Shown here: positions 1-60,716 of the stretch, one piece after another
Numbering within the stretch: position 1 is the first letter of the stretch
Layout: each line of letters opens with the position of its first letter
Source: Porphyridium purpureum
Lineage: Eukaryota; Rhodophyta; Bangiophyceae; Porphyridiales; Porphyridiaceae
Direction: 5' to 3'
NCBI GenBank assembly: GCA_008690995.1
Contig: VRMN01000001.1
Span: 3,286,001 to 3,350,000, forward strand
DNA length: 64,000 nucleotides
Notes under the pieces: generated by a model
Told to the model about the DNA's origin: nothing
The model's input: only the letters and a program-made list of their open reading frames with translations
The model's database searches: none
Made by a program: the position numbers and the translations under genes

Positions 1-1690
1 GCCGCTAGCGACTGGTGGAATCGACGCAAACGCAAGCCAGCAAATATTTTTCCATGCGAAAAGCAGGGCTTGGCATGAAATGCAAGGCCATGAGGTATTG
101 TGACCAGGTGGCACGGCAGCTCTACTGTTTGTTGAACGAGATTCGCGCGTGCCCTTTGGACGTGAATGAAGATCGTAGATCAAGCTTCAGAACGCGCCTC
201 TGGGCGTTTCACTCACACAGCAGGACGGTGTAGGTGCTTAGAAGCGGAGCTTGTGTGGCCGGGTATCAAGATGTGCAAGAGAGGGAGACCGTGCTAAGCA
301 AAAAGGCATGGGGTGGAGGGGGCTTGAGCGCATGCATCACATGCGGCCACGTGCTTAGTTTGCTTTCTGAGAGGGCTCTGCAAGCAGAACCGAACCGTTC
401 AATGGATCAAGTGAGAAAGAGTCACATTATTCGCTCCTTGACAGAAGAGTCATTTGATTGGAAAAGAGTCACATCAAGGTTGATCGTTTCGCCTCTGGTT
501 TTGTACCACTGGCTGTTGTCCCAACCAGGAAACCCGTCAATACAGAGAAAAGAAGACTTGTCTTTAAATGTGCGACCGTTTACAGAAGGGTATTTCGCTT
601 CCAGGCAGGCAGCAGACATTGAGCATCTGACAATGAGAAGCTCTGCATGAGGAACCTAGATTTGAGTGTCAGGACCTAAACAACAGCACGCCGAGTCCGT
701 CCCAGCTGCAGAACTTCCATTCGGTTCTCGAAACCATCCTTAAAGTCGAAATGGTGAGAGAGCTTGGAGACGAAATGGATACCAAAGATTCTGAGCACGC
801 CACGCCGCATCACGCCATGACACAAACCGGCCGGAGTGATGCAGTGTCTCGAAGATCCCGCCGTCCGATTGATTTCCTCGGCTAGTGTTCCCAATGTTTT
901 GTAGAGAAAGAAGCAGGTGCGCTACATCAGCTTGTTCATCAGCATGTCGGGCATCATCTCCTGTCTCTTGAAAAATGTGCAGGGCAGTCTGTGGTCTCGG
1001 CTACCTTGTGCGGCTTTGGGGCATCATTAGAGATGGCTCAAAGCACGTCCCTGACGCTGGAGTCTCGCGGACAACAAAGCAAAGCTTGCATGACGATCAG
1101 AGACAGTTTGCACTCGGTGCACGAAATCGGAATTTTGGTTGACAGTAAAGATGAGAGACACATGCGTTTAAGTGTTCCCAACGGCTATTGGTAGGATGCT
1201 GGAGGACGCAAATGCGGAACAGTGCCGCTGGCAGCTGCAAGCTCACCCGATGACCATGACAAGTGTCATCCGGCGAGACCGAATCGAATCCATCGGAGGC
1301 GGCTTGAGCAGCTATCGATCGCCGGCTGCTCACGAATGATGCAGCAGTCCTCGCGCGCTTCTTACACTGTCATCCAGGCCAACATGTGTAAGGATGAACC
1401 CCTTTTTCGCAAGAGTTTATGCAAAGCACCTCATTTAAGTAGAGCGCGCATAGGGTTTTGTTTGCCTGTGGCTTTTCTGATAACGCAACAGAACGCTCCG
1501 GGCAGGACTCGGTCTGACACAAACGCGCCATGTCGCGCGATTCACAACGCTTTCGCGACCACGTATTCGCCGCGATCATGATGCCTCCAGCGCAGTGCTC
1601 GGTTCGCTGCGTTGTGCGTGCTCGTCGGCTTGATGCATTGTCGTATAAGGTGCGTGAAGTCGCGTGCGTTGAAGAGTGGTTACCGAACAA
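1..1690 (+). other. Fragmentary coding-like region, no intact gene recognised
   Basis: No intact gene can be assigned here. Reading the + strand, stretches with protein-like composition follow one another in all three frames (about 15-650, 637-1194 and 1196-1340), interrupted several times by stops or frame changes. No family is recognisable in any stretch. It could be a decayed gene, or exons of a spliced gene, although introns look rare in this genome. I see no tRNA, rRNA or terminal repeats. The base composition is similar to the neighbouring genes. Confidence 0.3.
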
Positions 1691-2209
1691 ATGCCAGACG
1701 ATTGCCAGACGTGCGGAAGGCAAGCGGGCAAGACGCAGAGAATGATGTCCTTTCGGCCACGAGAAGTGACCGCGACATTTGAAATAATGGACTTTGGTTC
1801 TGACGATCTAGGCGCACTGTTGCTGTCGGCTGCGTCAAACAGCAAAGTACTTTCATGCGCAGAAGACACCTCAAGACGACCAGACAGAGCCAGTTCGGAT
1901 TCGAGTTTGCCTCCTTCATATGAAAGCACCGTTGAAATGTCTTTCGGACAGCAGCGCGAACTTGCGCGCACAAGGGTATGCTTTACTTCTCTTGAAGCCA
2001 AGTTTGGATGTTGGGACAGCACAGACGGGCTACGGACTCCGCGGAGACTGCCGAAATTCCAGCCCGTTTTAACCACCATCCTGGAAGTCGACAACGAAGA
2101 CGATGAGGAAGAGCCAGGCGCGGTGACCGAGAACCATGCAGTCTCCGTGTCACAATCCCAACCGCGCTGCGAAGAACCGAGTGGTGCGATCCATCGAACG
2201 ATGTCATGA
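1691..2209 (+). CDS. Hypothetical protein, acidic C-terminal part
   Basis: An open frame of 172 codons starts at the first ATG (1691); a second candidate start is the ATG at 1742. The product is Ser- and acid-rich, with an EVDNEDDEEEPG acidic run about 30 residues before its end and no membrane segment. No family is recognised. An open frame also exists on the opposite strand over the same bases, so coding status is uncertain. The + frame is preferred because its composition (acidic run, no poly-Ser artefact) is more natural and because it continues the direction of the coding-like fragments to its left. It may be the 3' end of the same decayed or spliced gene. Confidence 0.35.
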   Translation: MPDDCQTCGRQAGKTQRMMSFRPREVTATFEIMDFGSDDLGALLLSAASNSKVLSCAEDTSRRPDRASSDSSLPPSYESTVEMSFGQQRELARTRVCFTSLEAKFGCWDSTDGLRTPRRLPKFQPVLTTILEVDNEDDEEEPGAVTENHAVSVSQSQPRCEEPSGAIHRTMS

Positions 2210-2953
2210 GTCAAGCTGTCGCGTCCGACAGCCCGTCTGTGAACTAGTGGACCAGTCCTATTTACATTAAAAAAACTTTGAACTTGCTGGTACCCGCGAG
2301 TCTGCGCGCGCGGGACCTGTTCTCACGAAGCCCACTCACGGCTACACACACCCGTCCATCTCCCAATCCGAGCCACCGCTCTGCCGCTACCCAACTCTCC
2401 TCACCCGCCGTCCCTTATCCATGACCCAAACCGATATCTCCAGTTTGTCGCTAAATCAACGGAACCGAATGAACCGAATGAACCGAATGAACCGAATGAA
2501 CCGTTTGCGTCGCGCACAGTGCGTCCGGTTCAGCGAGCGCGCGACGCAATCGGTTAGCGCGGGCCGCTTGCGCTTCTGATGACGCTGGTGATTCAGCGAG
2601 TCGGGTTCTAGTAAATTGGGTCTGTTTTAGTATGTACAGCGAGAGAGTGTGTGTGTGTGTGTGCGCAAAACGAGAACGGGTGGGCGTTGATGGCGGGGCG
2701 AGTGCCGGTGACGGAGGTGGCGTGCTGGGTGTGTTGCGGGTAAGTTGGTGCGGTGGAGGAGAAATAAGAAGGGGGGGAAAGGAGAGAAAGGAGGAACGGT
2801 GTGGAAGGGGGGAGGGGAGGTGAGAACGGAGGTGGGAGAGGAGGAGTCCGGTGTGCGGGGAACGACAGGAATAAACGGCGGCGGTTGTGGTGGGTGGTGG
2901 AAGTGGTGGGGGGTGAGAGACGCGTGTGGGGAGAGAGGGAGAGACACAATACC
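2210..2953 (+). promoter_or_regulatory. PP6 upstream region: GAACCGAAT repeats, TGTACAG, purine-rich leader
   Basis: This is a gene-free spacer. At 2462-2503 the 9-mer GAACCGAAT is repeated in tandem about four times. TGTACAG lies at 2633-2639 and is followed directly by GAGAGAG and a GT microsatellite (about 2640-2663). From about 2750 to 2950 the + strand is almost purely G and A, ending just before the PP6 ATG. The purine-rich sense leader recurs before other genes in this window. The role of TGTACAG as an initiator is inference. Confidence 0.45.
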
Positions 2954-3868
2954 ATGGGGCTGCAGTTGGACTTGTGGATTGAAAAGGTGAAGCGCGGCGA
3001 GCATTTGGGCGAGTGGGAGTTGAAGCAGCTGTGTGACTTTGTCAAGGAGCTGCTGATCGAGGAGTCGAACGTGCAGCCCGTGAGGACGCCCGTCACGGTT
3101 TGTGGCGATATCCATGGTCAGTTTCATGACTTGCTCAACTTGCTGAAAACGGGCGGCGACGTGCCGGACACGAGTTATATCTTTATGGGCGACTTTGTGG
3201 ACCGCGGGTACCACTCGTTAGAGACATTCACCTTGCTGCTTTGCCTCAAGGCACGGTATCCCGCGCACGTCACCCTGCTGCGAGGCAACCACGAAAGCAG
3301 ACAGATCACGCAAGTGTACGGCTTTTACGACGAGTGCCAGCGAAAATACGGCACGGCGAACGCGTGGAAGTATTGTTGCGAGGTGTTTGACTACTTGACC
3401 ATTGCCGCGCTCGTAGATGGATCGATCTTATGTGTGCACGGCGGGCTCTCGCCGGACATTCGCACGCTCGATCAAGTGCGAACCATTGATCGACGTCAGG
3501 AAATCCCGCCCGAGGGCGCGTTTTGCGACCTGATGTGGTCCGACCCGGAAGATGTAGACACGTGGGCCGTGAGCCCTCGAGGTGCGGGCTGGCTCTTCGG
3601 CGCCAAGGTCACGCAGGAATTCAACACAATCAACAAGCTCGAGCTAATTTGTCGCGCTCACCAGCTCGTACAGGAGGGGTACAAGTTCCTCTTTGATGAC
3701 TCAGTCGTCACGGTTTGGAGCGCGCCAAATTACTGCTATCGCTGTGGCAACGTCGCCGCGATTCTGTCATTTGACGAGAACCGAAAGAGAGAAGCAAAAA
3801 TCTTTAGGGAAGACGAGGAAGAACATCGTGCGCCGCCCCCGCGGTCGACGGTACCGTACTTTTTGTAA
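2954..3868 (+). CDS. PPP6C: Serine/threonine protein phosphatase 6 catalytic subunit
   Basis: A PPP-family metallophosphatase of 304 residues, almost exactly the length of PP6 catalytic subunits (about 305). Signature motifs are intact: GDIHG at 51-55, GDFVDRG at 79-85, GNHE at 111-114, then HGGLSPDI and [11 protein letters not shown]. The C-terminus ends in PYFL, the tail that PP2A, PP4 and PP6 carry for carboxyl-methylation. The N-terminal stretch [20 protein letters not shown] and the sequence [11 protein letters not shown] resemble PP6 more than PP4 or PP2A. The ATG at 2954 is chosen because it gives the family length; the frame is open further upstream but that part is low-complexity purine-rich leader. 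PP6 acts in cell-cycle and stress signalling with SAPS-type regulatory subunits. Confidence 0.95.
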
Positions 3869-21642: not shown

Positions 21643-24600
21643 TCACTTTCGTGCTCGGCTGGCTCGGCGCTTCTCCTTCTTTCGATCTGAAGCGGAGATG
21701 CGCGTGTCTGCGGTAGTGGCACCGTCATGGCCGCCATGGATAAGGGCGTTGCCATCTGCGGGCCAGCCGCCTGGTCCACCAGTCGCGAGCGCGGGCAAAG
21801 TAGTGCTGCCGACGGGCACCGGCACGCTGCTTTGAACCAGAGCTGGGCCATTGGGATACTGTCGCAAGTAGATATGTGGGTTGAGAGGGTGGTCCGAGTC
21901 CACAAAGAATAGGTCTGAGTGCTTCAGAAGGAATCGCTTCAGACCGCCGAAACGCTCCTTGAGAACGGCCCCCCAATCCTGACGCCCAAATGTGGATCGC
22001 AAGTATTGCCCAATCTCACCGATCAGTAGGCAACCGTTCTCGGCCAGAATTTGGGTGAGAAACGCAAGTAGACCCAGCTCGCTCACTTGACTGTGCACAT
22101 ACAGTCGCACGTACTCGAGATTATTCCGCAGCGCCGTCGAATCGGCGAGGAACGGATTCTGGTTTGGGAAATACGCCAGCGCGCCTGTGCATACAAGATA
22201 TTCTCGCGGGTACAACGCGGCTTCGCTCGGCGAAGCGCGCTGATAATGGCGACCCGCCAGCGCATTGGGCAGATTCAATGCCAGCGTGTCTGGCACCGGA
22301 CTATTGAACGATTTCTCGAGCAAAAGGCCCAGATTGGACACCTCAGTTTGCCACACCGACAAATGGCGCTCTACAGCCGAGCCAAATAGCTCTCGCAAGC
22401 TGGCTTGGGAAGGGCTTGCGCAAAATTTTTCACCTGCCTTGACTCCTTTCTGGAAGCCGCGTGCAATGACAGGAATGCTCTTCTTGTTCATCCAGCGGTT
22501 CACGTTGCTCGCACCATCGAGAGGGTCGAAAACGTTCATCGATCCAGAAACGATCGCGCGGCTGGCTGGAAACGACGCACTGACAAATGCAAGTTGCGGC
22601 GATGATCCCGAGGGTGCTTGTGCTTGCGTTTCGAACGCCGCGTGATGCGCGTCACTACTGCCGCCCGCATCCGACGTGCGCGTCACGTAGAACGCGTTCA
22701 GAAAAGAAGGAGTGATCAGCAAATCGTCAGCCAAGCTTGCCACGGATGTATTTGAGCCCAACCCAGACACCGATGCGATCGACCCGTCTTTCAATTTGAG
22801 AGGGCCATGAATGCTGATGCCCCACACTAACCAGTCGATGCGGGAGTAAAACGCAAGAAAACGAAGCAGCGCATCGCACGGTGTATGCATCACTGCATGG
22901 TATGCGTTGAACAGGTAAATGACCATGATTTCAACGGCCTTCACAGAGAGTCCATCATGCAGCTGAGCAGGAGACTGCGGTGCGCACTCTTCGCTCGCAG
23001 CTGCCCATCCTGAGCTCGAACCCAATACTTCTTGGGACGAGATATAAGACTGAATGCTGGCCGGGGCGTCATCAAAAAAGTTCTCTTCGAGAATGCGAGC
23101 ACCGTACATGCACCAAGCGAGGATCACTGTCAGCGAGCGCTTGACCAGATTCCGCTTTCCGACCAGCTGGTCAAATTCATCCATAAAAAACGCAAAGTTC
23201 ATGCTGTTCACTTGGTTTAAGCTCACACGTACTCGCAGCTTTTCTGGCCCACGAAACGTCACACACGGAGAACTCCCGGCCTCACGATGTCGAAAGGTTA
23301 CACCAGATACACTCAAAGCGTCCCTTTCCTTTATCCGCAACTGGTGCTGCTGCTGCTGCTTTCCGTCTCGTAATTTTCCATCCTCGGTCATAGGCCCCCC
23401 TCCATGCGCACAAGTCGATGAAGATCCGGCACAACTACACGCAGACGACGAGTCGTGCGGTGACCGCACCTTACCAAGCACCACACTCTCACAAAGACAT
23501 GACATGAGGCGCACGCACCAACTCAGATTTTGCGCGTCCATGGCTTCGCTTGCTTCGCTATGGTGATTCGGTCCCTCGGACCCCGGCCCGGCCCCGGCCC
23601 CGGCCCCGGCCCCGGGCCCCGGCCCCGGCCCCGGCCCCGGACCCGGACCCGGACCCCGCAACAAGAAACACGCCTACATCTAACGTGCTATCCGCAAGGT
23701 AGCACTTGTATGCAAAGCCGCCAAAACAAAATGTCTGTCCGTTCAGCGCTGCTTTGACAACTGCGGCCGTATACTCAAACACAGCAACACGTAGAACCTC
23801 TAGAAATTGATTCGGCATGATCAAATCAACCAGTCGGTCAACCAAGTGGACCGCTGCTGGACTAGAACGCAACCTCTCCTTTTGGCTACTCCTGTTGGCT
23901 TGACTGAAGTTGTTGCTCATTCCAGAGCTGTTATCGCGCATGCGCCGTGACGCGATCGATTCATCAATGTCTTCCGCGTCGCTAAGTTGCATTCTTTCAA
24001 TGCCTGCCGCGTCAGCCGAAAACGATCGTGGTGAAAATGGGGGCTGATGAAGTCCCAAGCGACTGAGGTAACCCATCCTAATAGAGGAGGAAGACAACTT
24101 GTCGGGAAAACCCGCGGCACCCTGTATCACACCATTTGCACTTGCACCCACGCTGCTCATCGCGCCCATCTCAGAGCCTGCACGTCCCACTCCAACACCC
24201 AAACCTGGCTGCAAATGGGAAGATGAAAAGAGAGACGCCGAGTTGGGGTTTGCAGCCTTTTCCATTCCCGCATCGCTCACAAAAGCACCCTCCAAATGTT
24301 GCTGCGGCTGTCGCGACAGCGGCGCCGCAAGTTCATTGCTAGCTGAACGCCCTCGGCACGTACGAAGGGACAGAGGTGGTTCTGACACGCCTCGGAACAG
24401 GAAGCCTTCAAACAATTCAAGAACATTTTTCCAGCCCACACGTTCAGCGAAACTGGCAAACAACGCACCGAGCTCGAAAGCATCCTGTCCAGAGCCTGTG
24501 TACACAGCATTGGCTTCGGCACGAGCAGTCCCTGCACACGCCGAACCACTGTGCTCAACACGCCCTGTCTCGCCCTGTACGTCTGATGGCACCTGTGGCT

Positions 24601-27001
24601 GAGGGAACTCCTGGAAATTAAAGGAGACAGAGTGCTGCGGGCGACTCAGATACCTGGAGCGGAAGTAATCGCTTCCATGTTGACTCCCTCGCCGTTCTGC
24701 CAGATCCAGCATTGAGGTACCCTTGGAAATCGTGACCGAGAGCACCTTGCCCAATTCATTCTCCGGATTGATCATGTCGCTCGGCCATTCCATCCCGTCA
24801 TCGTCGTCGCTATTTTCTGTAGAGGTATTCGGGTAAGCATCCATAGAAATAACTTGTCCAGCAAGTAGGCCCTTTCCGGATGCAGGATTTGCCTCTTCTT
24901 CTCTGTGCTCAATCTCAGCGAGCAAGCGCGTAAGCTGATCTTGCGCCGATGAAGAAATGCGCACACGTCCCGTGAAGGCTGGACGGGTGCTCTTCTCCAC
25001 AACTGCCTTGAGCTGCATTTTCAGTGCATCCATGCTTGGGCTCGGCTTGAAGCCGGAAGTCGGCCGCACGATCGAAGCACCCGGACCAAACGCAGAAACG
25101 TGCGGCGGTTGCGGAAAGCTTTCTTCTACGGTTGAGTAGAGGCCTTGGCCCGGCAAAAAGTACGTGCCCTGATGTACCGAAGTCATGGGTGAATCAAACG
25201 AGTCTTGTAAGATTTCCTCTACTCGGTTCTCAAAAACCTTGATCATATCTTCCTCGCTCATACTTTCTATCGCGTGAACTGCTGCTGTTCCTGCATTGCC
25301 GGCGCCGGTCGAGGGCATCACGGACGGAGGCAAGCCTCCTTCATTCTTGGAAACCGTGTCCAAAGGTGGCGACGATGGTGAGACAGACGGATACACACGT
25401 GCTGAAGACGGCGGTGGCTCGGATTCGGGGCCTCGTGAGTTCTGGCGTTGTTGCGCAGCATGCGGGCCCATACCTTTCTCCTTCCGTATCGGGGGCGGTG
25501 CATGGAGATCTGTTACGCTCATTCCCGAGTACTTACTGAAAAGTGCGTCGAGCGTACTGCTCTGCTCCTCCCTAAAATGCGACTCAGCCACGTATCGTGC
25601 ATCAATGACGCGAGGGAATGTTCGTGCAATGGCTTGTGTGATGCAAGCTTCGACGTACTGCGTAGTATGATGATTTTGTGGATACAGCACTAGCTGTGAG
25701 ATCCATTCATCAGGCTGTGGAGCATAAAAGGCATGTCTCAACAACGCAAGCTCCTCCAAACCATCAAACACGACGACAGGCACGCGACTTTTCCTGATCA
25801 TCTTAATCACACGAGCACCAACGCCTTGAACCTCGGGAAATGGATCCAGAACATCGGAATTCCAATTCCACACCCCGCTTGCGCTCTTCGCCATGCTCTG
25901 CTCTACTGTTGACGACATGCGCTCTCTCACTTCGGAGTATACTGACGATGATGCATGCTGGTACCTGGCGCTATCCCTGCTGTGCGAGGCCCTGCCATTA
26001 GACGTGGACGAAACGATCATGTCTGTGCTTGGCGAGGGCCACAAGAACGAGTTGTCCGTGTCTGGCGTCATTCGTGAGCTGTCTTTCACCGTTCCTGCGG
26101 GTGTAGAAGCCGATGGCATGCTCGGAACTAGGTACGGAATGCCACGCGTTAACGCGTGCTCAACCGAAACCCCGCGTCGCAGCAAGTGCTTGAGCGAGTT
26201 CATGTAAGCATACTGGTTGAGAGGACAAAACAGAATTGTAAAGGTCTTCATCGCATAGCGCACAGTTGTCGACGCCCGTGATGACGCAGATCCATGCCTG
26301 AGTGGGGCGGCACTGCTGCCGTTGGTGCCTTCGCCTGAGAATTCCCGAGTATGTTCGCGCTGTTGCTTCGGATGCATTCGCCGAAAGACTGAAATTGAGA
26401 GCTCGAGAATGCCAGCCTCGGCGCGGAGGTCACGAGCAAACTGCTGAAGGCGCTTGTGCGTTGTTGAACTCTCCACCAAAGACATGGAAGACGAATGTGT
26501 CACCTCGCTGTCGAATACAGACGAGGAAAAACTGGTCGACGGTGTTAAACCAGAATGATGGGCGCCTGTGTTGACAGTGTCGTCGTCAACATCATCACTG
26601 CCACTGCCGCCATCACCATCATCAATTACGTCAGCATCGAGATCATTGCACGTGACTTTGGGCGACGCATCTGCAGAGGCGCGTTGTGCGTCTGCAGTTC
26701 CATGCCGAGCACGAGCAGCTGGCTTTCCACTGGCCGGGTAGGCGGTACTGTTCTCTACAGAGGCTTGTCCATGGACGCTGCTACTTGGCGCCGGCTCCGC
26801 TGCTGGTACCCCGGGTGCGCGACTTTTCGACTTTCGCAGGGCTGAGCGGGCCGCAATCGCCGCGGAGATGGACACGAACGTAGCCTGCTGTATTTGCTTG
26901 TCCAGAAGCGGGAGCACTTGGTCGGCATTGTATCTATCAATGCGCACTACCGCCTTATCCTTGAGTAATTCCGCATGCTCTTGCTCATGCTGCCGCGGCA
27001 T
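21643..27001 (-). CDS. Fusion of PARN-like deadenylase fold and poly(A)-polymerase-like nucleotidyltransferase
   Basis: The ATG is at 27001. The first part (1147 codons open to 23558) has a PARN/CAF1-like fold: residues 18-50 (RIDRYNADQVLPLLDKQIQQ then FVSISAAIA), a second block at about 185-290 (LELSISVFRRMHP, TVRYAMKTFTILFCPLN, RGIPYL), a third around 409-470 (PVVVFDGLEELALLRHAFY, FPRVIDARYVAE), and SGQDAFELGALF near 838-849. Long Ser-rich inserts separate these. From about residue 1050 a plant-type PAP/OAS1 nucleotidyltransferase begins (FGGFAYKCYLADSTLDVGVF). It continues in another frame from 23664 down to 21643, with LNQVNSMNFAFFMDEFDQLV, KRSLTVILAWCMYGARILEE and MNVFDPLDGASNVNRWMNKK. 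The frame switch falls in a GGCC-rich repeat, so an intron or a repeat-length error is likely. Catalytic Asp/Glu residues of both domains are mostly replaced. It ends in a basic tail. Confidence 0.7.
23578..23658. repeat. GGCCCC-rich simple repeat inside the fusion gene
   Basis: About 80 bases of near-perfect CCGGCC/CCCCGG repeat, grading into CCCGGA units. It is translatable as Gly-Ser/Gly-Ala/Gly-Arg in one minus frame and as Gly-Pro/Gly-Ala in another. It lies exactly where the reading frame of the nucleotidyltransferase changes. Such repeats are prone to slippage and to assembly errors. Confidence 0.85.
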
Positions 27002-36480: not shown

Positions 36481-36765
36481 TCAGCCAAACTGATCGTGTG
36501 ACTCGACCGCCGGCGGTCGCGACCTCACCTGACCCGTTTCGGCCGGCTTCGCTTTGTACAGTTTCGCGCTGGGAGCCGCAGCATTTCAGTTTGACCTTGT
36601 CTCTCGCCGTCGAGACTGCGCCAACGCTTGGGCGGCCGATCAGACGCTCCTTTTCGTTGAAGATTGAGGCCAGGACAGAGAGCCTCATGTGTGCGTCGGG
36701 GACGTTGAGGCGGTGTCGAGTAGACTCAGGTAGCCAACCGGCTCCTGGTGGTGGAGGCCAAGGCA
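36481..36765 (+). promoter_or_regulatory. DIS3L2 promoter/leader
   Basis: 285 bases before the DIS3L2 ATG. TGTACAG occurs at 36555-36561 in the sense direction, about 205 bp upstream of the ATG. The DIS3L2 frame is open for a few codons above the ATG but without conservation. Confidence 0.35.
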
Positions 36766-39700
36766 ATGAATAAGCGGAGGCGTAGTCCGGGTCCCACAGT
36801 TTGGACAGTGGAAACTGGCGGTGTTCGAGTGTACCGGACGTGGCGGTATCGCGTCAGACGCAGCGCGTCTACCCAGAGGAGTTGCGTTGATCTCAGTTCG
36901 CAAGCATGCGCGGGAGTCAACGCTGCCCCAAAGCTGCGAGACGCTGTGTGCCAAACAGAGCCACATCGTGAAACAGAATTCAAGTCGCGCCCGGTGTGTG
37001 CGACCTGTGAGACACTCTGTGTGATGTGTCTTGCGAATGAGCGCTCGGTCGCGGCAGCATCGAGCGTAGCGGCATCTCGTGGACCTGTGAACGGTTCGGC
37101 CACGGGAGTTGCACGTGCTGGAGCCGGGGCTGCAGGAAAGAAAGTGAAGCAACCGACCTTGAGGAAGCCCGCCTCAGACGAGAATCATGACGAAGTCGTT
37201 TCTGCAACCCAGACGTCGACCGAAATAGAGGCCAAAGCACAGAGCGAGAGCTTCATGTTCAACTTTCCAGACACGCAACCTCCGTCTTCCTTGTCTTTGC
37301 GAGAGGGGACTCAGACAAAGAAGCCCAAAAACTCTGTTACACCAGGTGAAGCAGGCGAGCCATTGACACGCATCGAGTTCTCAGGCAAAGGGAAGACGAG
37401 TAAGAGGAAGACAGCGAAGATGCAAGAAAAGAAGAACACGCCTTCATCACCCGTGAGGTCGGATGCAGAAGTTCTGGAACGCACGGCCTCTGATGGTGAC
37501 ATTATGGGTTCAGAAATAGCAAGCATCACAGCAAATGTGGAATCGCTTGCGCTGGAGGAAGTAGAACTAGTGCAGGCAGAGCCTGCTTTATCGAAACGAT
37601 CCGGGAAGGGTCGCAAGAAGCGCGAGCCTGTGCAACTTGAGAGCAGGAAGGTCCAGGCGCCGGTGAAGCAGTCCGACGAACAACGAAAGGTCCAAAATGA
37701 AATCACAAATACCGCAGCCTCGAAAATCGAAACAACGCTTGCGAAAGTCATGAAAAGCAGGTATCGTGCTTACTGGAGCATTACCGAGGTGGACGACCAC
37801 GTAGCACAGAAGAAACTTGTCACCGGCCCCATTCGAATTTTTGGGAGGGTCGGATTTGTCACCGATGCAGAGTCTGGTCGTGATATACGCTTGAACGGAT
37901 GGCAAGCGATGAATCGAGCATTTGATGGCGATGTTGTGGCGGTATTAATTTGCTCCTCAGCAGACGCACCACAGTCGGGTCCTGAGGTCGACGAAGACGA
38001 TTTGGATGAGGATTTAGCGGAATCTTTAGAACAGGTGCACACAGAATCCAACGGGTCTTTTGATGCAGGTGATACTTTGCAGGTGCGCTCGTTGGACAAA
38101 GTTCCTCGCGCACGGCTTTCCGGTAAAGTGGTACGTATCTTACGCGCTGTTGGCCGGCGGCTAGCTATCGGCTCGCTTCGTTCGCGTCAAAACGATGACA
38201 AGAAGCTGCAGGAGGATGACTCCATACTATTCTATCCTATTGAAGCAAGTATGCCGATTGGAGTTGTGCCGATACGATCACTTCCTAAGCAACTTCGACA
38301 GGCACTGCAGAAAAGTGGGCTCGCTGTGCTTTCAAGTCGTTTATTTGCTTGCGTGTACACGAATTGGCGCGAGACGTCGCTACACCCTATCGCAAGATTC
38401 ATGGATGATATGGGACAGGCGGGTGATATACGGACGGAGACACGTGCCATTCTGTTGCGCAATCAGATCGTTGCCCAGCCGTATGATGAGTCCAAGTACG
38501 CGGCAGACCTACCTACTAGTGAAGCTGAGTGGCACATTCCGGAAGATGAAATAAGCCGGCGGCGCGATCTTCGGGGAATCCGAATTTTCTCAATCGACCC
38601 AAAAACTGCGCGTGATTTGGACGACGCCCTCTCAATTGCTCGCTTGCCCAGCGGCCTTTTTGAAGTTGGTATTCATATTGCGGACGTGTCGTACTTTGTG
38701 AAGCCAAATTCACAATTGGACAAGGACGCGGCATTGCGCTCCACCTCGGTCTACCTCGTGCACACAGTTATTCCAATGTTGCCGCGCGTGCTTTGCCAGG
38801 AGCTTTGTAGCCTGAACCCTGCCAAGGACCGCCTGTGTTTCTCTGTCCTTTTGCAAATGGATGCAGAGGGGCGCATTCAGAGTTCATGGTTTGGCCGCAC
38901 TGTGATCCGGTCTTGCGTAAAGCTTGCGTATGAGGAAGCGCAGGACCTGATCGATGGAAAGGTTGACCTGGAATGGGCAGCCGGCGTTTCGATTGACGCT
39001 CCGCACACTCTCAGCGCCATTTCTGAAGACGTGCGTGCACTGAATGAGATTGCAAGGCACATGCGACGCCGCCGCTTTGAGGATGGAAGCGTGTCGTTGC
39101 ATAGTACGGAGCTCAACTTTGCTGTCGATCGGCAAACAGGTCTGCCAACAGGCTTTAAAACATACGTTCGTCGTGAGAGCAACGAGCTCGTCGAAGAGTT
39201 CATGTTGTGCGCGAATCGTGCTGTCGCTACGTTCATCAGCAAGGCGCTGTCAAAGTACGCAATACTTCGACGTCATGAACCACCAAAGCTCGATCTTTTG
39301 GACGAGTTTCACGAGTGGTGTAGGGAGTATCTACAGATTGGCGTTGATCTAGATTCCAGCCTGCACGTACAGCAGTCGCTTGCTATGCTCGAGTGTACTC
39401 TTGCTGAGCGAGACATGGCGCACGTCTTCCAGATCGCTCAGCTTCTGCTCACGAAGCCGATGCAGAATGCACGTTACTTCTGCACGGGTGATCTGAACAA
39501 TCCGGCCTTGTGGGGTCACTATGCTCTTGCCTTTGATCGTTATACACATTTCACGTCGCCGATTCGCAGGTACCCTGACTTAATCGTTCATCGCTTGCTA
39601 CAAATCGCGATCGAGATGCACGGGCCGACTGGTCATGTGGATCCGGCCAAAGCTGCTGGATTCAATCTCGACCTGAAAAAGGTCAAAGGTATCGTTGCGA

Positions 39701-40347
39701 ATGGAAATGTTTCCGCAACAGCAGCAGAATGTACGATGAAAAGCCTATCAGCCAAGAAAGCGGAGGAAGAGTGCAAGGAAGTCTTTCTTGGGATCTTGTT
39801 GGACATCACACCACGAATCATGGTTGGGATCGTCATGGGAATTCAGAAACAGGCGTTCACGCTGTTCGTTCCCGCGCTTGGTCGCCAGAAGACATTGCGC
39901 GAGGAAGACCTGAAAAAGTTCGGGGTCTCATGCACAACCTCACTGAACAAAAGCAGCTCTCAAAAGTCCGTGGAACTGGCATTGCGGGAACGGAATGCTG
40001 CCGTCTGCACATGGGACATTCGCTCAACAGATGCGAAACGGATGCGGGAAGAGTTGCAACAGAGAGTAGAAACGGTTGAGATCGGACGAGGCCGTGAAAG
40101 CGATGACGGCATATCGGCGTCGATTCCATCCGGCACATCGAATGCGGCTCGGCTTTATGTGGTCTGCTGCAAGGAGGAGGAAATTCAAGATGTCAGTGCC
40201 TGTGACCCGCCGGTCGTCGATGCACGGTCGACTTTTGTCCTCCAGATGTTCCAAAAGGTGCTGGTTCTTGGAAGCGGTCAAAGAACTCCGCATGTGGCCG
40301 TGAATATCGCGCTGCTACTCAACACGGGGGTACTTGGATTTCCTTGA
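36766..40347 (+). CDS. DIS3L2-type 3'-5' exoribonuclease (RNB family)
   Basis: 1193 residues from the ATG at 36766. The first 320 residues are disordered, Lys/Ser/Glu-rich, with no PIN domain, which separates it from exosome DIS3 and fits cytoplasmic DIS3L2/SOV. Two cold-shock domains follow (about 325-580: RYRAYWSITEVDDH, GRVGFVTDAESGRDIRLNGW, PRARLSGKVVRILRAVGRRL). The RNB domain starts near 600 with the catalytic aspartates in FSIDPKTARDLDDALSI and runs through GIHIADVSYFVKPNS, TVIPMLPRVLCQELCSLNP and HYALAFDRYTHFTSPIRRYP. A C-terminal S1 domain begins near 1000. DIS3L2 degrades uridylated RNAs. Intact catalytic residues predict an active enzyme. Confidence 0.93.
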   Translation: MNKRRRSPGPTVWTVETGGVRVYRTWRYRVRRSASTQRSCVDLSSQACAGVNAAPKLRDAVCQTEPHRETEFKSRPVCATCETLCVMCLANERSVAAASSVAASRGPVNGSATGVARAGAGAAGKKVKQPTLRKPASDENHDEVVSATQTSTEIEAKAQSESFMFNFPDTQPPSSLSLREGTQTKKPKNSVTPGEAGEPLTRIEFSGKGKTSKRKTAKMQEKKNTPSSPVRSDAEVLERTASDGDIMGSEIASITANVESLALEEVELVQAEPALSKRSGKGRKKREPVQLESRKVQAPVKQSDEQRKVQNEITNTAASKIETTLAKVMKSRYRAYWSITEVDDHVAQKKLVTGPIRIFGRVGFVTDAESGRDIRLNGWQAMNRAFDGDVVAVLICSSADAPQSGPEVDEDDLDEDLAESLEQVHTESNGSFDAGDTLQVRSLDKVPRARLSGKVVRILRAVGRRLAIGSLRSRQNDDKKLQEDDSILFYPIEASMPIGVVPIRSLPKQLRQALQKSGLAVLSSRLFACVYTNWRETSLHPIARFMDDMGQAGDIRTETRAILLRNQIVAQPYDESKYAADLPTSEAEWHIPEDEISRRRDLRGIRIFSIDPKTARDLDDALSIARLPSGLFEVGIHIADVSYFVKPNSQLDKDAALRSTSVYLVHTVIPMLPRVLCQELCSLNPAKDRLCFSVLLQMDAEGRIQSSWFGRTVIRSCVKLAYEEAQDLIDGKVDLEWAAGVSIDAPHTLSAISEDVRALNEIARHMRRRRFEDGSVSLHSTELNFAVDRQTGLPTGFKTYVRRESNELVEEFMLCANRAVATFISKALSKYAILRRHEPPKLDLLDEFHEWCREYLQIGVDLDSSLHVQQSLAMLECTLAERDMAHVFQIAQLLLTKPMQNARYFCTGDLNNPALWGHYALAFDRYTHFTSPIRRYPDLIVHRLLQIAIEMHGPTGHVDPAKAAGFNLDLKKVKGIVANGNVSATAAECTMKSLSAKKAEEECKEVFLGILLDITPRIMVGIVMGIQKQAFTLFVPALGRQKTLREEDLKKFGVSCTTSLNKSSSQKSVELALRERNAAVCTWDIRSTDAKRMREELQQRVETVEIGRGRESDDGISASIPSGTSNAARLYVVCCKEEEIQDVSACDPPVVDARSTFVLQMFQKVLVLGSGQRTPHVAVNIALLLNTGVLGFP

Positions 40348-43726: not shown

Positions 43727-46690
43727 TCAATCGGTGCCAAAGTCAACACCGGCGAGCCGGGCGTTCTTGTGCCCGAGTCGCAATGCCATTTCAGTAAAAC
43801 TGGACCAGTTGGAACCGAGAAGTGCACGCGTGCGTGCCAAGCACAAAACGTCAGCCAGCGCATACTTGACGCATTCGGCATCGCGGAATTCACAGGAGCG
43901 ATTGGGTCTTGGCAGCGTTATGACGCGATCTGGCAACGCGTTTTTCAGGTAAGTCACCGTGTCTGCCCCGTCGGCGGCTAAGAAGAAGCAAGTTGACGGA
44001 CTCTCTGCCAAAATTGCTTTCATCTCCTTTTCGAAGATTTGTGGACGTGCTTTTGACCTCCAATAGTCCATCGTTTCCTGCGCGCTTTGCGAATACTCAT
44101 CCTTCTGTACACCCTTAATGTCAGAGTCAAGCGACAAGTGCCTGATGTGCACGCCGACACAATTCTTCAACCCGCCCATGATCTGCCGGTTCACTTCTTC
44201 CACAATTGTCTGAACCTCTGGCACCGGGCGTAGTAAACGCAGCATTTGGTTTTCCGAGTCCCATGACGAGTACTGGCCCTTTGTTTGCATGATATACGCT
44301 GATTTGAAATAAATATGTCGCGTGAGGGAGTTGTCGATGAAAGCGTCCTTCACTGCACCATAACCCTCGGTGTCCATGTAGTTGTAAATCTGAAATGCGC
44401 CCCACGCCTTGTCAGCACCCGGTCCGCCTTTCATCGTCTCCGACAGCTCTGACCATTTCGAGCCTGCAAAGTCTGGAATCACGATCATCTTCTGCATAGC
44501 GGGTTCATATTGGAAAAGGCTTTGGAACGGCGCTTGCAGATGTGAGTCAGTCGGCCAGATGACAAGGAGGAAGCGATTGGTTCTGCGCGCAAACGACATG
44601 GCCGAGCCCAGTGCGCGCGCACGATTTCCCATTCCATGCATGACGTGTGCCACCAACACGCGCGCATGCGTCTCTGTCCGCTCCTCGGCAATTTCCTCCA
44701 AGTGATCGCGCAGTACAATCATCTCGAGTGGGTCAATGGCGTTCAGCAGCACAAGGGGAATACTGAAGCCATCGTGAAGTCGATTGATTAGCTCTGCCTT
44801 ACTCGTGAGGTTCGCGGGCCCAACCACACTCTTTCCGGCCGCCGTGACAGTCTTGGTGCCGCCACCCAACACAAGTGACTTTGAAAGCTCGCCGCCACTC
44901 TGTTCCCCGCGCGGGCGATGAAACTGCGCCTCGTACACAAATTTGCCGCGCTTGGCGATCGTGTACGTGGCCCTTAAATCAGCTGCAACCGTTTGCCACC
45001 GCCGCCGGGACTCGTGCTCGATGCGGTCTGTGCATTTTCGCTCAATGTCCATAAAAAAGGCTGCCGACTGCTCATCTGACGGAAGACTTTCGTCCGGCAA
45101 GGCGATGCGGAAAGCACTTTCTGGCGAAATGTCGTGAATTACCATAGGAGCGGCAGGGCTGGACATCAGTGGATGGGCTTGCGACATGCGACTGCTCTCC
45201 TGGGCCGTAAAGGCTTCAAGACGCAGCTCAAAATCGCGCTGACTCTCAGCGCGGAGAAATATGCGCTCATCGTAGCCACCAACAGACCAGAACAAATCTT
45301 GCGAAATATACATAATGGCACTCGTATCAAGTCGCACGCCGAATTCCACCGCATTGACAGTATTGGGCAGCGCATGGAGCCACCATCCGGCATGAATGGG
45401 AGACGAAGCGGTAAAACTTGATTGCGACTTATCCGACACCAAAGATGCTGCCGCTCTCGTGAGCTCCTGCTGATGCATCACGAAATCAGGGGACACCGCA
45501 ATATCACAGTCCATTAACAGCACATGACTGCCGGCAGCCAAACTCACACCGAGATTGAAGGCGCGCGAGATCGTGTATCGGTCGCTTGTAACGCCCTGGA
45601 CGCCCACATACTTGATACGCTTGTTCACGCCATGCACCATTTGCAGCATTTCCTCGCTACTTGAGCTGTCCACCACAATGACTTCTCCTAAACCATTCAG
45701 CTCCAGTACAGGTCCGAGAACTACGCCGAGCTTCTCAGAGTGCTCGTTGCAAGCAAGCACAACGCTGACGCCTGAAGACGACATTGACCCGAGGAAATTA
45801 CCGCCCAAGAATACAAACAGTAGTCGTAGTACAAGTAACATAACGGCTACCAACATCACGCTGCGCATTGTGGGTGACCGGATCACAGAAGCATACGATT
45901 TCCCCGCACCGGCTGCCATTGACGGAAACGTGTTCGGTATTGAAATGGGAATTCCATTCGCCAGCACAGCAGTTGCGGCGGTCGGCACGCCGCCGCCGCC
46001 GCCGCCCATCATCGCGGGGCTTGTTTCCCCGCGCACGCCGCCACTGGCGACGTGATTCTTGCTGCGATCATAAACACGGTTGGGAAAGTAAGCACTGCCA
46101 ACGCTGCGCATCGAACTACCCGTAGCCGAGACGCGCGCCGATTGATGTTCCCGATAAAGCGAATCCGACGTCGCCGCATGCTGCATCGGCATGGCGCCAC
46201 CGCCGACGCCCGCGACGCCGGCAGGGAATGCCGCATTCGCAGAAGGGATACCTGCGGCGGTGAGCGTGTTCATGGAGCCGCGCGAGGAAAGCAACGGGTC
46301 ATATGCTCCAGCGCCTTGAGGTGCAGTTGTCTTGCGGGATAAGTTACCGCCACCTCCACGCGTTTGGCCAGGTCGATACGGAGACGGTGATGTTGTTACA
46401 AGCTCTTCGCCACGTAGATACGCGGGCGAGCCTTCACCAGGGCCCTGAAGGCCAGCGGAGTATCCCTGTCCATGTGCACGGTTGTACATGTCGGGCAGCT
46501 GGGGACCATAGGCGTTCCAATCGGACGCCAGCTGCAGCCACACACCAGATTCCCTCGGCTGCGGATCTGATGCAGGTGGTGCCCCGACCAGGTACGGCTG
46601 TTGCGGATATGCGCTCTCCCACGAACTGAGCGAAAGGCTCCTGTCAAACTTTCCCTCTGGAAACCCGAGCTCTGCGGGTGCCTTCTGCAT
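43727..46690 (-). CDS. Bifunctional-looking glycosyltransferase: GT2 domain plus GT23/NodZ-like domain
   Basis: 987 residues from the ATG at 46690. The N-terminal 275 residues are disordered (Gly/Ser/Pro) and cytosolic. One anchor helix (about 281-300, SVMLVAVMLLVLRLLFVFLG) gives type II topology. A GT2 domain follows at about 305-450: VSVVLACNEHSEKLGVVL, EVIVVDSSSSEEM and HVLLMDCDIAVSPDF (DCD where DxD is usual). A linker leads to a second transferase at about 660-987: VAHVMHGMGNRARALGSAMS, VIWPTDSHLQAPF, CVGVHIRHLSLDSDIKG, FFLAADGADTVTYL and LLGSNWSSFTEMALRL, the alpha-1,6-fucosyltransferase/NodZ-like pattern. The G-N-R-x-R-A-L loop and HIRH nucleotide-binding motif are present. It probably extends and caps a glycan in the Golgi. 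Confidence 0.82.
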   Translation of the reverse strand: MQKAPAELGFPEGKFDRSLSLSSWESAYPQQPYLVGAPPASDPQPRESGVWLQLASDWNAYGPQLPDMYNRAHGQGYSAGLQGPGEGSPAYLRGEELVTTSPSPYRPGQTRGGGGNLSRKTTAPQGAGAYDPLLSSRGSMNTLTAAGIPSANAAFPAGVAGVGGGAMPMQHAATSDSLYREHQSARVSATGSSMRSVGSAYFPNRVYDRSKNHVASGGVRGETSPAMMGGGGGGVPTAATAVLANGIPISIPNTFPSMAAGAGKSYASVIRSPTMRSVMLVAVMLLVLRLLFVFLGGNFLGSMSSSGVSVVLACNEHSEKLGVVLGPVLELNGLGEVIVVDSSSSEEMLQMVHGVNKRIKYVGVQGVTSDRYTISRAFNLGVSLAAGSHVLLMDCDIAVSPDFVMHQQELTRAAASLVSDKSQSSFTASSPIHAGWWLHALPNTVNAVEFGVRLDTSAIMYISQDLFWSVGGYDERIFLRAESQRDFELRLEAFTAQESSRMSQAHPLMSSPAAPMVIHDISPESAFRIALPDESLPSDEQSAAFFMDIERKCTDRIEHESRRRWQTVAADLRATYTIAKRGKFVYEAQFHRPRGEQSGGELSKSLVLGGGTKTVTAAGKSVVGPANLTSKAELINRLHDGFSIPLVLLNAIDPLEMIVLRDHLEEIAEERTETHARVLVAHVMHGMGNRARALGSAMSFARRTNRFLLVIWPTDSHLQAPFQSLFQYEPAMQKMIVIPDFAGSKWSELSETMKGGPGADKAWGAFQIYNYMDTEGYGAVKDAFIDNSLTRHIYFKSAYIMQTKGQYSSWDSENQMLRLLRPVPEVQTIVEEVNRQIMGGLKNCVGVHIRHLSLDSDIKGVQKDEYSQSAQETMDYWRSKARPQIFEKEMKAILAESPSTCFFLAADGADTVTYLKNALPDRVITLPRPNRSCEFRDAECVKYALADVLCLARTRALLGSNWSSFTEMALRLGHKNARLAGVDFGTD

Positions 46691-58211: not shown

Positions 58212-60716
58212 ATGGGGAATTGCTTGTCGGCCTCGGAACCGAGTGCGGCGGCCTCGGGCAAGCAGGCAGACAAGCCATCGTCTCCGACGCCCGTCAAGAA
58301 AAATACGGATGCTGTTCCCAAGGCGTCAGGACCAGAGCGGCCCGCGGCAAAGAAGGTACAGGCCGCGCCCGTCGTGGACTCGACATCGTCGGCATCGTAC
58401 TCGGCAAACGGTGGGTCGGAGCTTTTCGGACTGTTTGCCAAGAAGGACGAGGAAGACAAAACCTTTTCTCTGCTTGGGGCCAAAAAGTCCAAGGTGCGCC
58501 TTGCCCAGCATGGCTTTGACGACTCAGCGGCAGCGGCGGATGCGCAGGCACCGCACATTTCCGTGCTCGAGGGTGAAGCCATGACCATGTGGTACCGCGT
58601 GATTGTGGCGTCCGCGTCAACGCCAATCGACGAAAAGAGCGTTCAACAATGCATAGACAGCGTCTTTGCCTTGGTGGACTCCAAGTTCAACAACTGGAAC
58701 CCGAATAGCGAGATCAATCAGCTGAACGCGCTCAAGGCCAAGAAAAAGATGGACGCATCGCCGGAAATGCACCAGCTCTTTGCGTTGATTGATAACGTGC
58801 ACACACTCTCTGACGGCCGTTTTGACCCCACGGTGGATCCACTGATCAAGATCTGGACAAAGAGTCTGGTCGAGTACGGGCATCCATGCTCCTCACAGGA
58901 CACTTCGCACCTCAAGTTTGCTCTAGGCTGGAAGACGAAAGTGACGCGCAAGAACTTGTCGGTTATGCTGGAGAATTCAAACACAAGTATCGACTTGTGC
59001 GGCATTGTGAAAGGTTATGCGGTGGACGAGATTCTAACACGAATCCAGAATGCGCGCTGGGTGGGGAACAACAAGATTAGCATTTACGTGGACTGGGCAG
59101 GGGATATTCGCAGCATCGGTATGCACCCGACTGGAAGGCCATGGCGCTCGGCTGTGATGCAGCCGCCAGAGCTCAAACGCCTCTTTGATCTCTGGGCCTC
59201 TGACCGCATGGATCTCGCAGTTTCCGAAAAGGACGTGCAGTTTTTCGTAGACTTCCCGGACTCACATGGGGGTGCCGCGCTAGCCACGAGCGGCGACTAT
59301 TTTCGCATTCAGAAATTCGGTTACCATCATATTTATGATATTACGAACCATACACCTTTGAAGGCCGGCGTGGGCTCGCTTGCCTCTGTGTCTGTACTTG
59401 CAAGCGATTGCACTATAGCGGATTCGCTCGCGACGGCTGGCATGACATGTGGCACCGTAAAAGCGGCCTCTGCATTTTTCGACGGTCTCATGAAATCGCA
59501 GCCTGATACATTGCTTGGTTACTGCCTAATTGGCCGGTCCAATGGCGATGTCAAGTATACGAGTGTCTTTAAGAGACACAATGATTACCTTGAATCACAC
59601 GGCGTCAAGACAAAAGCTTCTGACGTTTCGCCCGCACCGGGAAGCCTGATTGGTGTAGAACCTGCCGCCCTCAAGAAGCGAAACACGGACTCCAACAAGG
59701 CGCTCTTTCCAGCCGTTCTCAATCAGCTTCCGCGTACGTTGTGTGTGGTCGGTGTTAACCAGTCAGGTGGGAAGCCATTCGTGACTGGGGTCTGCGGCTC
59801 AGTCGCGTCGTGCTCTCTATCCCCGCCATCCTTTTCCCTGCTGGTGGACCCAAGTGTGCTACCAGTTGCGGTGGGCACCGAGCTGCACGTTGCCTACTTG
59901 AACGAGAACACACGAGAACTTGTCGAAGTCTCGACAAATAATAGCAGCTCGTTCGTGGACTGGGCTCTGAAGCCTGGTGTACAATGCAAGGACGCGAAGG
60001 ACTGGCAGAAAATGTTCGGCAAGGTATGCGCTGGGATGCTTGGGACAGTGGTGAAAGTGGAGAGTGTGGATGCCCATTGTGCGGTTGCTATTGTGAATCC
60101 GAGCTCCTTCACACTGATGCCCAAGAGCGGGGCGCGGCTACACGCAATTGGGTCGCGTTTGGTGTCTGGTCCGATTGTTGCGGAGAAGTACATTTGCGAC
60201 TCGGTCGCGATTGAGGAGGACGAGCGTCTCAAGCGATTAATGCGCTCGAATCGGTCACCGGTCTGTGTAGTATCCGTAAGCTCAGCAGACGGCCGCGCTC
60301 ATGCGCTTACGGCGAGCTCGGTGCGAACCGAGCCGCGCACGGGTGCTAGCTTTGCGTTCAATATCCAGAAGGGGTCCGTTTTTCGCTCATCTCTTGGCTT
60401 TGAGGGCTCACGCGTAGCGCTCCACTGGCTTCACCCCGTGCAAGAGTCTTTGGCGGAATACCACACCAAGTCAGTCACACTTGACACATCGCGCGCCGAC
60501 TCGCTGTCAAATGTGGTCTCTCGTGACGAGATGGGCAGCGGCTGGCCGCCAGTGATTGCGGGCTGCGCGGCGGTTCTAATTTGCACCGTGGTGTGTGTGA
60601 CTGACGCAGGTGATCATTTGGTATACGTGTGCCGCGCAACACACGTTCCAGAAGACTTGGGCACCGGCGTGTTCCTGACGTATGGCAACGGCAACTACTC
60701 CGTCCTGGAAGGTTAG
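58212..60716 (+). CDS. ApbE-like flavin transferase fused to two flavin-reductase-like domains, predicted N-myristoylated
   Basis: 834 residues from the ATG at 58212. The N-terminus MGNCLSASEP fits the N-myristoylation rule (Gly2, Ser6) with Cys4 for palmitoylation, suggesting membrane attachment on the cytosolic side. A disordered linker (to about 115) precedes an ApbE domain (about 120-430): TMWYRVIVAS, FALVDSKFNNWNPNSEINQL, GRFDPTVDPLIKIW, DLCGIVKGYAVDEIL, AATSGDYFRIQ-type segment, HHIYDITNHTP and ASDCTIADSLATAGM. This family moves FMN from FAD to Thr/Ser of target flavoproteins. Two split-barrel FMN-binding flavin-reductase-like domains follow (about 495-660: FPAVLNQLPRTLCVVGVN and SCSLSPPSFSLLVD; about 675-834: SPVCVVSVSSADG). 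ApbE with flavin reductase fusions are known from some protists; the lipid anchor is the unusual part. Confidence 0.82.
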   Translation: MGNCLSASEPSAAASGKQADKPSSPTPVKKNTDAVPKASGPERPAAKKVQAAPVVDSTSSASYSANGGSELFGLFAKKDEEDKTFSLLGAKKSKVRLAQHGFDDSAAAADAQAPHISVLEGEAMTMWYRVIVASASTPIDEKSVQQCIDSVFALVDSKFNNWNPNSEINQLNALKAKKKMDASPEMHQLFALIDNVHTLSDGRFDPTVDPLIKIWTKSLVEYGHPCSSQDTSHLKFALGWKTKVTRKNLSVMLENSNTSIDLCGIVKGYAVDEILTRIQNARWVGNNKISIYVDWAGDIRSIGMHPTGRPWRSAVMQPPELKRLFDLWASDRMDLAVSEKDVQFFVDFPDSHGGAALATSGDYFRIQKFGYHHIYDITNHTPLKAGVGSLASVSVLASDCTIADSLATAGMTCGTVKAASAFFDGLMKSQPDTLLGYCLIGRSNGDVKYTSVFKRHNDYLESHGVKTKASDVSPAPGSLIGVEPAALKKRNTDSNKALFPAVLNQLPRTLCVVGVNQSGGKPFVTGVCGSVASCSLSPPSFSLLVDPSVLPVAVGTELHVAYLNENTRELVEVSTNNSSSFVDWALKPGVQCKDAKDWQKMFGKVCAGMLGTVVKVESVDAHCAVAIVNPSSFTLMPKSGARLHAIGSRLVSGPIVAEKYICDSVAIEEDERLKRLMRSNRSPVCVVSVSSADGRAHALTASSVRTEPRTGASFAFNIQKGSVFRSSLGFEGSRVALHWLHPVQESLAEYHTKSVTLDTSRADSLSNVVSRDEMGSGWPPVIAGCAAVLICTVVCVTDAGDHLVYVCRATHVPEDLGTGVFLTYGNGNYSVLEG

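Follow-up and report, generated by a model that had tools for sequence, protein, structure and literature searches.

A red-algal protein joining a degenerate TOE1/PARN-type nuclease to a degenerate PAP/OAS1-type nucleotidyltransferase, a candidate non-catalytic reader of RNA 3' ends

A minus-strand locus of the red alga Porphyridium purpureum is probably a single gene whose product, about 1,780 residues long, belongs to a family present in several red algae. The protein combines a TOE1/PARN-type nuclease domain, a PAP/OAS1-type nucleotidyltransferase and a C-terminal winged helix. Both active sites look lost from the sequence, and the protein most likely serves, without catalysis, as a reader of RNA 3' ends or as a scaffold. 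The window analysed is a stretch of 64,000 nucleotides (contig VRMN01000001.1), and positions below refer to it. The locus appears as two open reading frames, with ORF2 in the +1 frame relative to ORF1 and thus not as one open frame. The listed ORFs share 107 bases (23664-23558), of which a (GGGGCC)n/(GGGTCC)n array makes up the greater part. Together they hold one domain set, and other red algae have the same pair within a single protein. The features, all on the minus strand, are:

27001-23558, minus: ORF1, 1147 aa; nuclease domain of CAF1/TOE1-PARN type, degenerate and with long low-complexity inserts, followed by the N-terminal portion of a nucleotidyltransferase domain
26120..26950, minus: nuclease domain, first part (aa 18-294)
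25583..25828, minus: nuclease domain, second part (aa 392-473), aligned to the HNxLLD...FDTK blocks of PARN/TOE1
25151..25225, minus: family-specific motif RVEEILQDSFDSPMTSVHQGTYFLP (aa 593-617)
24404..24484, minus: last nuclease helix DAFELGALFASF... (aa 840-866), aligned to HSAGYDAFETGFVF of the TOE1-like paralogue
23657..23851, minus: nucleotidyltransferase domain, N part (...FGGFAYKCYLADSTLDVGVFLVA; ORF1 aa 1051-1115)
23581..23658, minus: (GGGGCC)n/(GGGTCC)n repeat, site of the frame change
23664-21643, minus: ORF2, 673 aa; remaining nucleotidyltransferase, PAP/OAS1-type substrate-binding region, winged helix, basic tail
23209..23529, minus: nucleotidyltransferase domain, C part (...LRVRVSLNQV; ORF2 aa 46-152)
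22297..23208, minus: PAP/OAS1-type substrate-binding region (ORF2 aa 153-456), edges drawn by eye, the PF26180 label covering the whole protein without coordinates
21865..22143, minus: C-terminal winged helix, Egalitarian/LOTUS-like (ORF2 aa 508-600)
21646..21687, minus: basic C-terminal tail DRKKEKRRASRARK (ORF2 translation)

The array separates a nucleotidyltransferase strand, FGGFAYKCYLADSTLDVGVFLVA in ORF1, from the next helix, NLSWCVRLMSCLCES in ORF2. In Compsopogon and Galdieria the counterparts of this strand and helix lie near each other and unbroken. Since the frame thus changes inside a repeat that, by comparison with the relatives, lies in a single nucleotidyltransferase loop, we read ORF1 and ORF2 as one gene. 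Loss of any single base between 23676 and 23558 gives a single ORF from the ATG at 27001 to the stop at 21643. Two units of the array are irregular, a 7-base GGGGCCC at 23620-23614 and a 5-base unit at 23589-23585. The former is the simplest candidate for the source of the frame change, since removing its surplus C lets the repeat run on as Gly-Ala in one frame. An exact 18-base search found a GGGGCC-type repeat at one other place in the genome.

The frame change could instead be genuine, caused by an intron that removes the repeat, a recent frameshift in the strain or ribosome slippage. This would alter the gene model and not the protein family, and is compatible with our preferred reading; we regard it as possible but doubtful. 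The array is a plausible slippage site, and at least 100 frame-keeping GT...AG pairs were listed; by eye, however, none of those listed has a GTAAGT-like donor, and no clear winner emerged from the splice-site listing. Against a genuine change, a single surplus C within a largely regular repeat is a one-step explanation, despite the 5-base unit also present in the array. Moreover, the assembly is a Nanopore/Illumina hybrid, and errors in repeats are common in Nanopore-based assemblies. GC3 at the locus did not distinguish coding from off-frame sequence. Two independent genes in P. purpureum, a nuclease-like protein and a second protein from the ATG at 23541, would agree with the two frames and with the database protein P0001, a 632-aa form of ORF2 alone starting at that ATG, but we rejected this as very improbable because the break divides one nucleotidyltransferase domain, in a repeat-filled loop, and seven relatives are single proteins.

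A preliminary description of the locus had joined PARN/CAF1-type and PAP/OAS1-type domains in one gene. This was borne out by the CAF1 match (E 9.9e-12), the PF26180 label and the position of the break inside one nucleotidyltransferase domain. The three peptides it quoted are all in the minus-strand translation, and its outer coordinates, 27001 and 21643, are exact. The search it proposed for the same domain pair in red algae was positive: seven of the ten proteins found carry both domains in a single chain, namely those of Compsopogon (a record whose sources include mmetsp), three Galdieria species and three further records. On the E-values and this recurrence we rejected chance similarity. 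When the Compsopogon protein was used as query against the P. purpureum genome, all five matches fell within this locus. The fused protein is probably as old as red algae. A first homologue search had returned only the window's own protein, probably as repeat words filled the 8000 scored candidates, and PDB searches with ORF1 and ORF2 alone matched repeat stretches only.

CAF1 (PF04857) was detected with Pfam profiles in ORF1 at 45.2 bits (cut-off 24.2), far beyond chance, and in the Compsopogon protein at E 7.3e-15. By profile it was present in 8 of 11 rows. P0001 is among the 11 but stops short of the domain, and Pfam did not detect CAF1 in the shorter P0003 and P0004. No other nuclease family matched ORF1 at E up to 1. 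The family profile matched human PARN (E 1.2e-7). The genome has separate nuclease loci with motifs intact by eye, PARN-like, TOE1-like and CAF1/POP2-like, as well as two tailing-type nucleotidyltransferase loci with motifs likewise intact by eye; these names, including TRF4-like and URT1-like below, are our own, assigned from motifs. Aligned to these paralogues with hhalign, the nuclease part matched the TOE1-like protein (L003) at E 7.8e-10 and the PARN-like one at E 1.3e-5. The nuclease tree put it on the TOE1 side (92/89, without a star; the alternatives, at AU p 0.082 and 0.087, are not rejected). These sequence comparisons weakly suggest that it is closer to TOE1 than to PARN. The CAF1/PARN-type identity proposed earlier holds, and PARN proper was set aside as weaker than TOE1-like in both hhalign and the tree, though the tree leaves the choice unsettled.

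The protein shares with TOE1 and PARN, the CAF1-family DEDD deadenylases, the nuclease domain by profile and the motif order, and its blocks align to the genome's own TOE1-like and PARN-like proteins. It differs in its lost catalytic acids and in its fusion to a nucleotidyltransferase and a winged helix. Pfam matched neither the PARN subfamily features RRM and R3H (ORFs at E up to 1, relatives up to 0.1) nor the C3H zinc finger of the TOE1 subfamily (ORFs and relatives). In the window, S-x-A stands in place of the catalytic D-x-E, within 26878-26849. The first D and E of the DEDD set are lost in all eight alignment rows that reach them, and no row has the full set. PARN cannot do without any of the four acids, nor TOE1 without the first two (PMC10493513).

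In the nucleotidyltransferase, the third catalytic Asp is Arg in the window and R, K or S in 10/10 rows. None of the ten rows has the three aspartates together; the second survives in the window and Compsopogon, and the first in P0010. The GS/GG motif keeps its G in all ten and has S or G as second residue in eight. PF26180 is a precomputed database label, not re-run, carried by P0001 among others, 10/10 proteins in all; an hmmscan of ORF2 against a library that lacks this family gave three matches only, all under cut-off. The nucleotidyltransferase profile matched the TRF4-like L007 weakly in hhalign (probability 32%, E 4.8e-4) and did not match the URT1-like L008 (probability 0.9%).

Conservation is highest in the winged helix: the window and G. 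sulphuraria share 72 of 85 residues there, compared with 23-49% identity in eight other segments. Its sole PDB profile match up to E 10 was Drosophila Egalitarian (E 8.3e-4, no single domain passing alone). The Pfam match of the winged helix lies near the cut-off of 27 bits: the window scored 23.3, Compsopogon 20.1, whole P0005 23.1, whole P0008 21.8 and the segment from P0010 14. The segment cut out of P0005, at 27.6 bits, was the only one above it. A PF23713 search was silent in the own genome and equally in every control, and is little informative. The domain is a possible RNA binder. Neither this winged helix nor the frame break had been mentioned in the preliminary description.

On balance we favour a double pseudo-enzyme, in which TOE1/PARN-type and PAP/OAS1-type folds have both lost their catalytic acids and which, with its Egalitarian/LOTUS-like winged helix, would read RNA ends, or act as an adaptor, within an mRNP. 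The two dead folds would grip RNA 3' ends or tails but neither cut nor extend them, and the winged helix would supply the conserved specificity, for a structured RNA or a partner protein. We infer the folds from sequence, together with RNA binding, 3'-end recognition and the adaptor role. Of the two functions proposed earlier, active coupled tail control does not fit the loss of both catalytic sets, and a tail-binding scaffold fits better. More tentatively, and short of an even chance, red algae may have kept since before Cyanidiophytina parted from the other lineages a dedicated 3'-end reader, a dead eraser and a dead writer with an Egalitarian-like winged helix choosing the targets, as an adaptor that sets mRNA fate or place from tail state.

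A different, unlikely role is that of a pseudo-enzyme regulator that reads no RNA itself: the dead TOE1/PARN-like domain would pair with an active deadenylase, and an active tailing enzyme would be the partner of the dead nucleotidyltransferase. Paralogues with intact motifs are available in the genome, PARN is a dimer, and dead enzyme copies often behave in this way, but the top conservation of the winged helix would be left unexplained. Given the lost acids, we rejected an active bifunctional enzyme as our main interpretation. That the fusion still works as a non-canonical nuclease or transferase with the remaining acids is quite improbable: the D292-equivalent is kept in 8 of 10 rows (five Galdieria-like, P0010, P0003 and P0004), and the window has the D382-equivalent and one nucleotidyltransferase Asp, but the first D and E, which both PARN and TOE1 require (PMC10493513), are lost in 8/8 rows and the third nucleotidyltransferase Asp in 10/10.

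The PF26180 label on the red-algal proteins suggests plant kinship of the nucleotidyltransferase, with the group of NTP6, NTP7 and NTP8, which we take to be PF26180 members; the UniRef name of the Compsopogon protein (P0002) is 'PAP/OAS1 substrate-binding-related'. No plant-named protein was among the four homologue matches at E 0.1 (two of them without a name). In the accessible text of the review PMC13030794, NTP6 and NTP7 are pre-miRNA cytidylators, NTP8 is in P-bodies and all have a PAP/OAS1-like domain; that text mentions no nuclease domain for the plant proteins, and the word 'winged' is absent from the review. In contrast to this group, the red-algal protein has lost its catalytic aspartates.

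Adding and removing RNA tails is usually the work of separate enzymes that oppose each other. In the CPEB complex, Gld2 and PARN, a tail adder and a tail remover, act on the same mRNA. Adder and remover are held together there as in the red-algal protein, but as separate active enzymes, and not as one probably inactive fused protein. We found no paper on this nuclease-nucleotidyltransferase fusion in the open-access library searched, and no prior description of a 3'-end reader made of a dead eraser and a dead writer in the literature searched. The accessible part of PMC5862402 has 0 occurrences of PARN.

Egalitarian, an mRNA-localisation protein, also combines winged helices with a nuclease-like domain, but its winged helices are N-terminal and the red-algal one is C-terminal, and the sequence similarity is weak. 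Its nuclease-like part is an exonuclease homology domain of RNase D type; no such domain was found in ORF1, where CAF1 was the sole nuclease match (E up to 1). The accessible part of PMC13186709 presents Egalitarian as having winged-helix (LOTUS-like) domains, finds the putative catalytic residues of its nuclease-like domain dispensable for RNA binding and describes no nucleotidyltransferase domain. The fusion hints that red algae pair a nuclease-like fold with a winged helix of the kind known from an animal mRNA-transport adaptor. That an apparently old protein joins both folds, lacks both active sites and has a strongly conserved additional domain suggests that tails can be read as well as edited, and the red-algal fusion is a directly testable case in culturable algae.

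The locus comprises two overlapping reading frames and a repeat within the coding region:

27001-23558, minus strand: ORF1 (1147 aa), CAF1-family nuclease domain (E 9.9e-12, Pfam profile search)
23664-21643, minus strand: ORF2 (673 aa), its protein assigned to PF26180, a PAP/OAS1-type family label, by the protein database
23581-23658: (GGGGCC)n hexanucleotide array inside the coding region

The three peptides quoted from this locus in the preliminary description were all located in minus-strand ORF1 or ORF2. Relatives were sought with residues 100-570 of P0001, a 632-aa form of ORF2 (E up to 0.1; at least four proteins found, with the best 8000 candidates scored), and with P0002, the Compsopogon protein, over residues 880-995 (E up to 1; eight proteins among 292 candidates). 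Pooling both queries gave ten distinct proteins (P0001-P0010) among the matches listed, P0001 being the window's own ORF2 half. PF26180 and PF04857 (CAF1) occur together in seven of the ten proteins among the matches listed: those of Compsopogon caeruleus, Galdieria partita, G. sulphuraria, a third Galdieria (G. phlegrea by label) and three further records. P0003 and P0004 are shorter, and their nuclease-like N-terminus was recognised from the alignment alone. A linker motif, S-x-H-[GQ]-G, was found in 7/10 aligned rows (window 25151-25225). The sources of the Compsopogon protein include mmetsp, which we take to be a transcriptome set, so this fusion is likely carried on one transcript. The fusion itself is almost certainly real.

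Galdieria is placed in Cyanidiophytina, and Porphyridium and Compsopogon in mesophilic lineages. Since carriers are found on both sides, the fusion probably dates back to the origin of the red algae; no member from Eurhodophytina was identified by name among P0001-P0010. When the P. purpureum genome (22.16 Mb, 46 contigs) was searched with the Compsopogon protein, all five matches fell in the fused locus (three candidates scored). Excerpts of PMC6811547 name the red-algal subphyla and describe a P. purpureum CCMP1328 assembly of 22.1 Mb in 52 contigs, the largest 5.7 Mb, from Nanopore and Illumina reads.

ORF2 lies one frame on from ORF1, and the two overlap by 107 bases, mostly the (GGGGCC)n array. 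Removal of any one base within 23676-23558 gave a single ORF, and a 7-base unit at 23620-23614 would be the simplest candidate for the extra base. By exact search, a run of three (GGGGCC) units is present at a single further site in the genome. Aligned relatives place the array in a loop of the nucleotidyltransferase domain, between the strand bearing the catalytic-site motif and the following helix; the same loop is likewise long in P0010. Judged from sequence, ORF1 and ORF2 are one gene, not two. The frame change may stem from misassembly, from a genuine indel or from an intron; by eye, none of the 100 frame-keeping GT...AG pairs listed had a GTAAGT-like donor.

Searched against the PDB, the family profile found human PARN (E 1.2e-7). 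In hhalign comparisons using eight of the ten family rows (P0003 and P0004 omitted), the paralogues from the same genome scored E 7.8e-10 (TOE1-like, L003), 1.3e-5 (PARN-like, L002) and 1.9e-4 (CAF1/POP2-like, L004). A tree of these eight rows and three paralogues grouped the family with L003 (support 92/89, not starred, long branches), with two alternative placements not rejected (AU p 0.082 and 0.087). Of the four DEDD catalytic acids, the first D and the E are replaced in 8/8 rows reaching them (P0003 and P0004 stop short). At the third position 8/10 rows have D, whereas the window has E and Compsopogon has A. Only the window has D at the fourth, a column read from the TOE1-like row because the PARN-like row is misaligned there. 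L003 (ORF 1396-3198, minus strand) carries the TOE1-like deadenylase motifs VAMDVEFSG, LHNGMLD and HSAGYD; a C3H-type zinc finger was also recognised in it by eye.

Across ten rows of the nucleotidyltransferase part, in which P0003 and P0004 align poorly, the first catalytic Asp is retained in P0010 only, the second in the window and Compsopogon only (E in five Galdieria-like rows), and the third in none (R, K or S instead). The TRF4-like L007 and URT1-like L008 of the same genome, found via PAP_assoc, have the expected motifs by eye. A profile of eight family rows aligned the L007 motif weakly (probability 32%, E 4.8e-4) and did not find L008 (probability 0.9%).

A predicted winged helix directly preceding the basic tail is the most conserved segment of the protein. 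Window identity there is 72/85 with G. sulphuraria, 63/85 with P0010, 56/85 with Compsopogon and 45/81 with P0003; the eight remaining segments show 23-49% with G. sulphuraria. At E up to 0.1, the Pfam Egalitarian-type winged helix (WH_Egal, cut-off 27 bits) matched 7/11 rows of the family alignment, the strongest at 8.6e-5; the 11 rows include ORF1, which ends before this segment. With E allowed up to 1, 4/6 isolated segments matched. The cut-off was exceeded solely by the cut-out P0005 segment (27.6 bits); the window segment (23.3), Compsopogon (20.1), the P0010 segment (14) and whole P0005 (23.1) and P0008 (21.8) fell below it. Against the PDB up to E 10, the segment profile matched Egalitarian solely (9rvy and others, E 8.3e-4); two Egalitarian domains contribute to this hit, and neither passes singly. 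As described in excerpts of PMC13186709, Egalitarian combines LOTUS-like winged helices with an exonuclease homology domain; the putative catalytic residues of this domain are distant from RNA and not needed for binding.

We suggest a non-catalytic job, because both catalytic sets are lost, the domains are still recognisable and paralogues with intact motifs exist elsewhere in the genome. The winged helix, being conserved, would be the seat of specificity. The lost catalytic sets and conserved winged helix together favour an RNA-end reader or adaptor, and we lean modestly towards this statement as a whole. Its main rival is that the fused protein may regulate active partner enzymes. Searches of an open-access library found no description of the fusion; the Compsopogon protein's descriptive database name is PAP/OAS1-related, and the Galdieria proteins are named 'hypothetical protein' at NCBI. 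The component folds are all already known.

Another 3'-end RNA enzyme, a Dis3/RNase II-like exoribonuclease (36748-40347, plus strand; RNB E 1.5e-103), lies ~10 kb from the fused locus on the opposite strand. Elsewhere in the window, ApbE (flavin transferase; E 6.1e-43) and flavin-reductase-like (E 4.7e-12) domains are combined in one 834-aa ORF (58212-60716, plus strand). A family-2 glycosyltransferase region (E 2.7e-8) is encoded by a 987-aa ORF (43727-46690, minus strand), whose NodZ fucosyltransferase-like match is weak and under the cut-off (E 1e-5).
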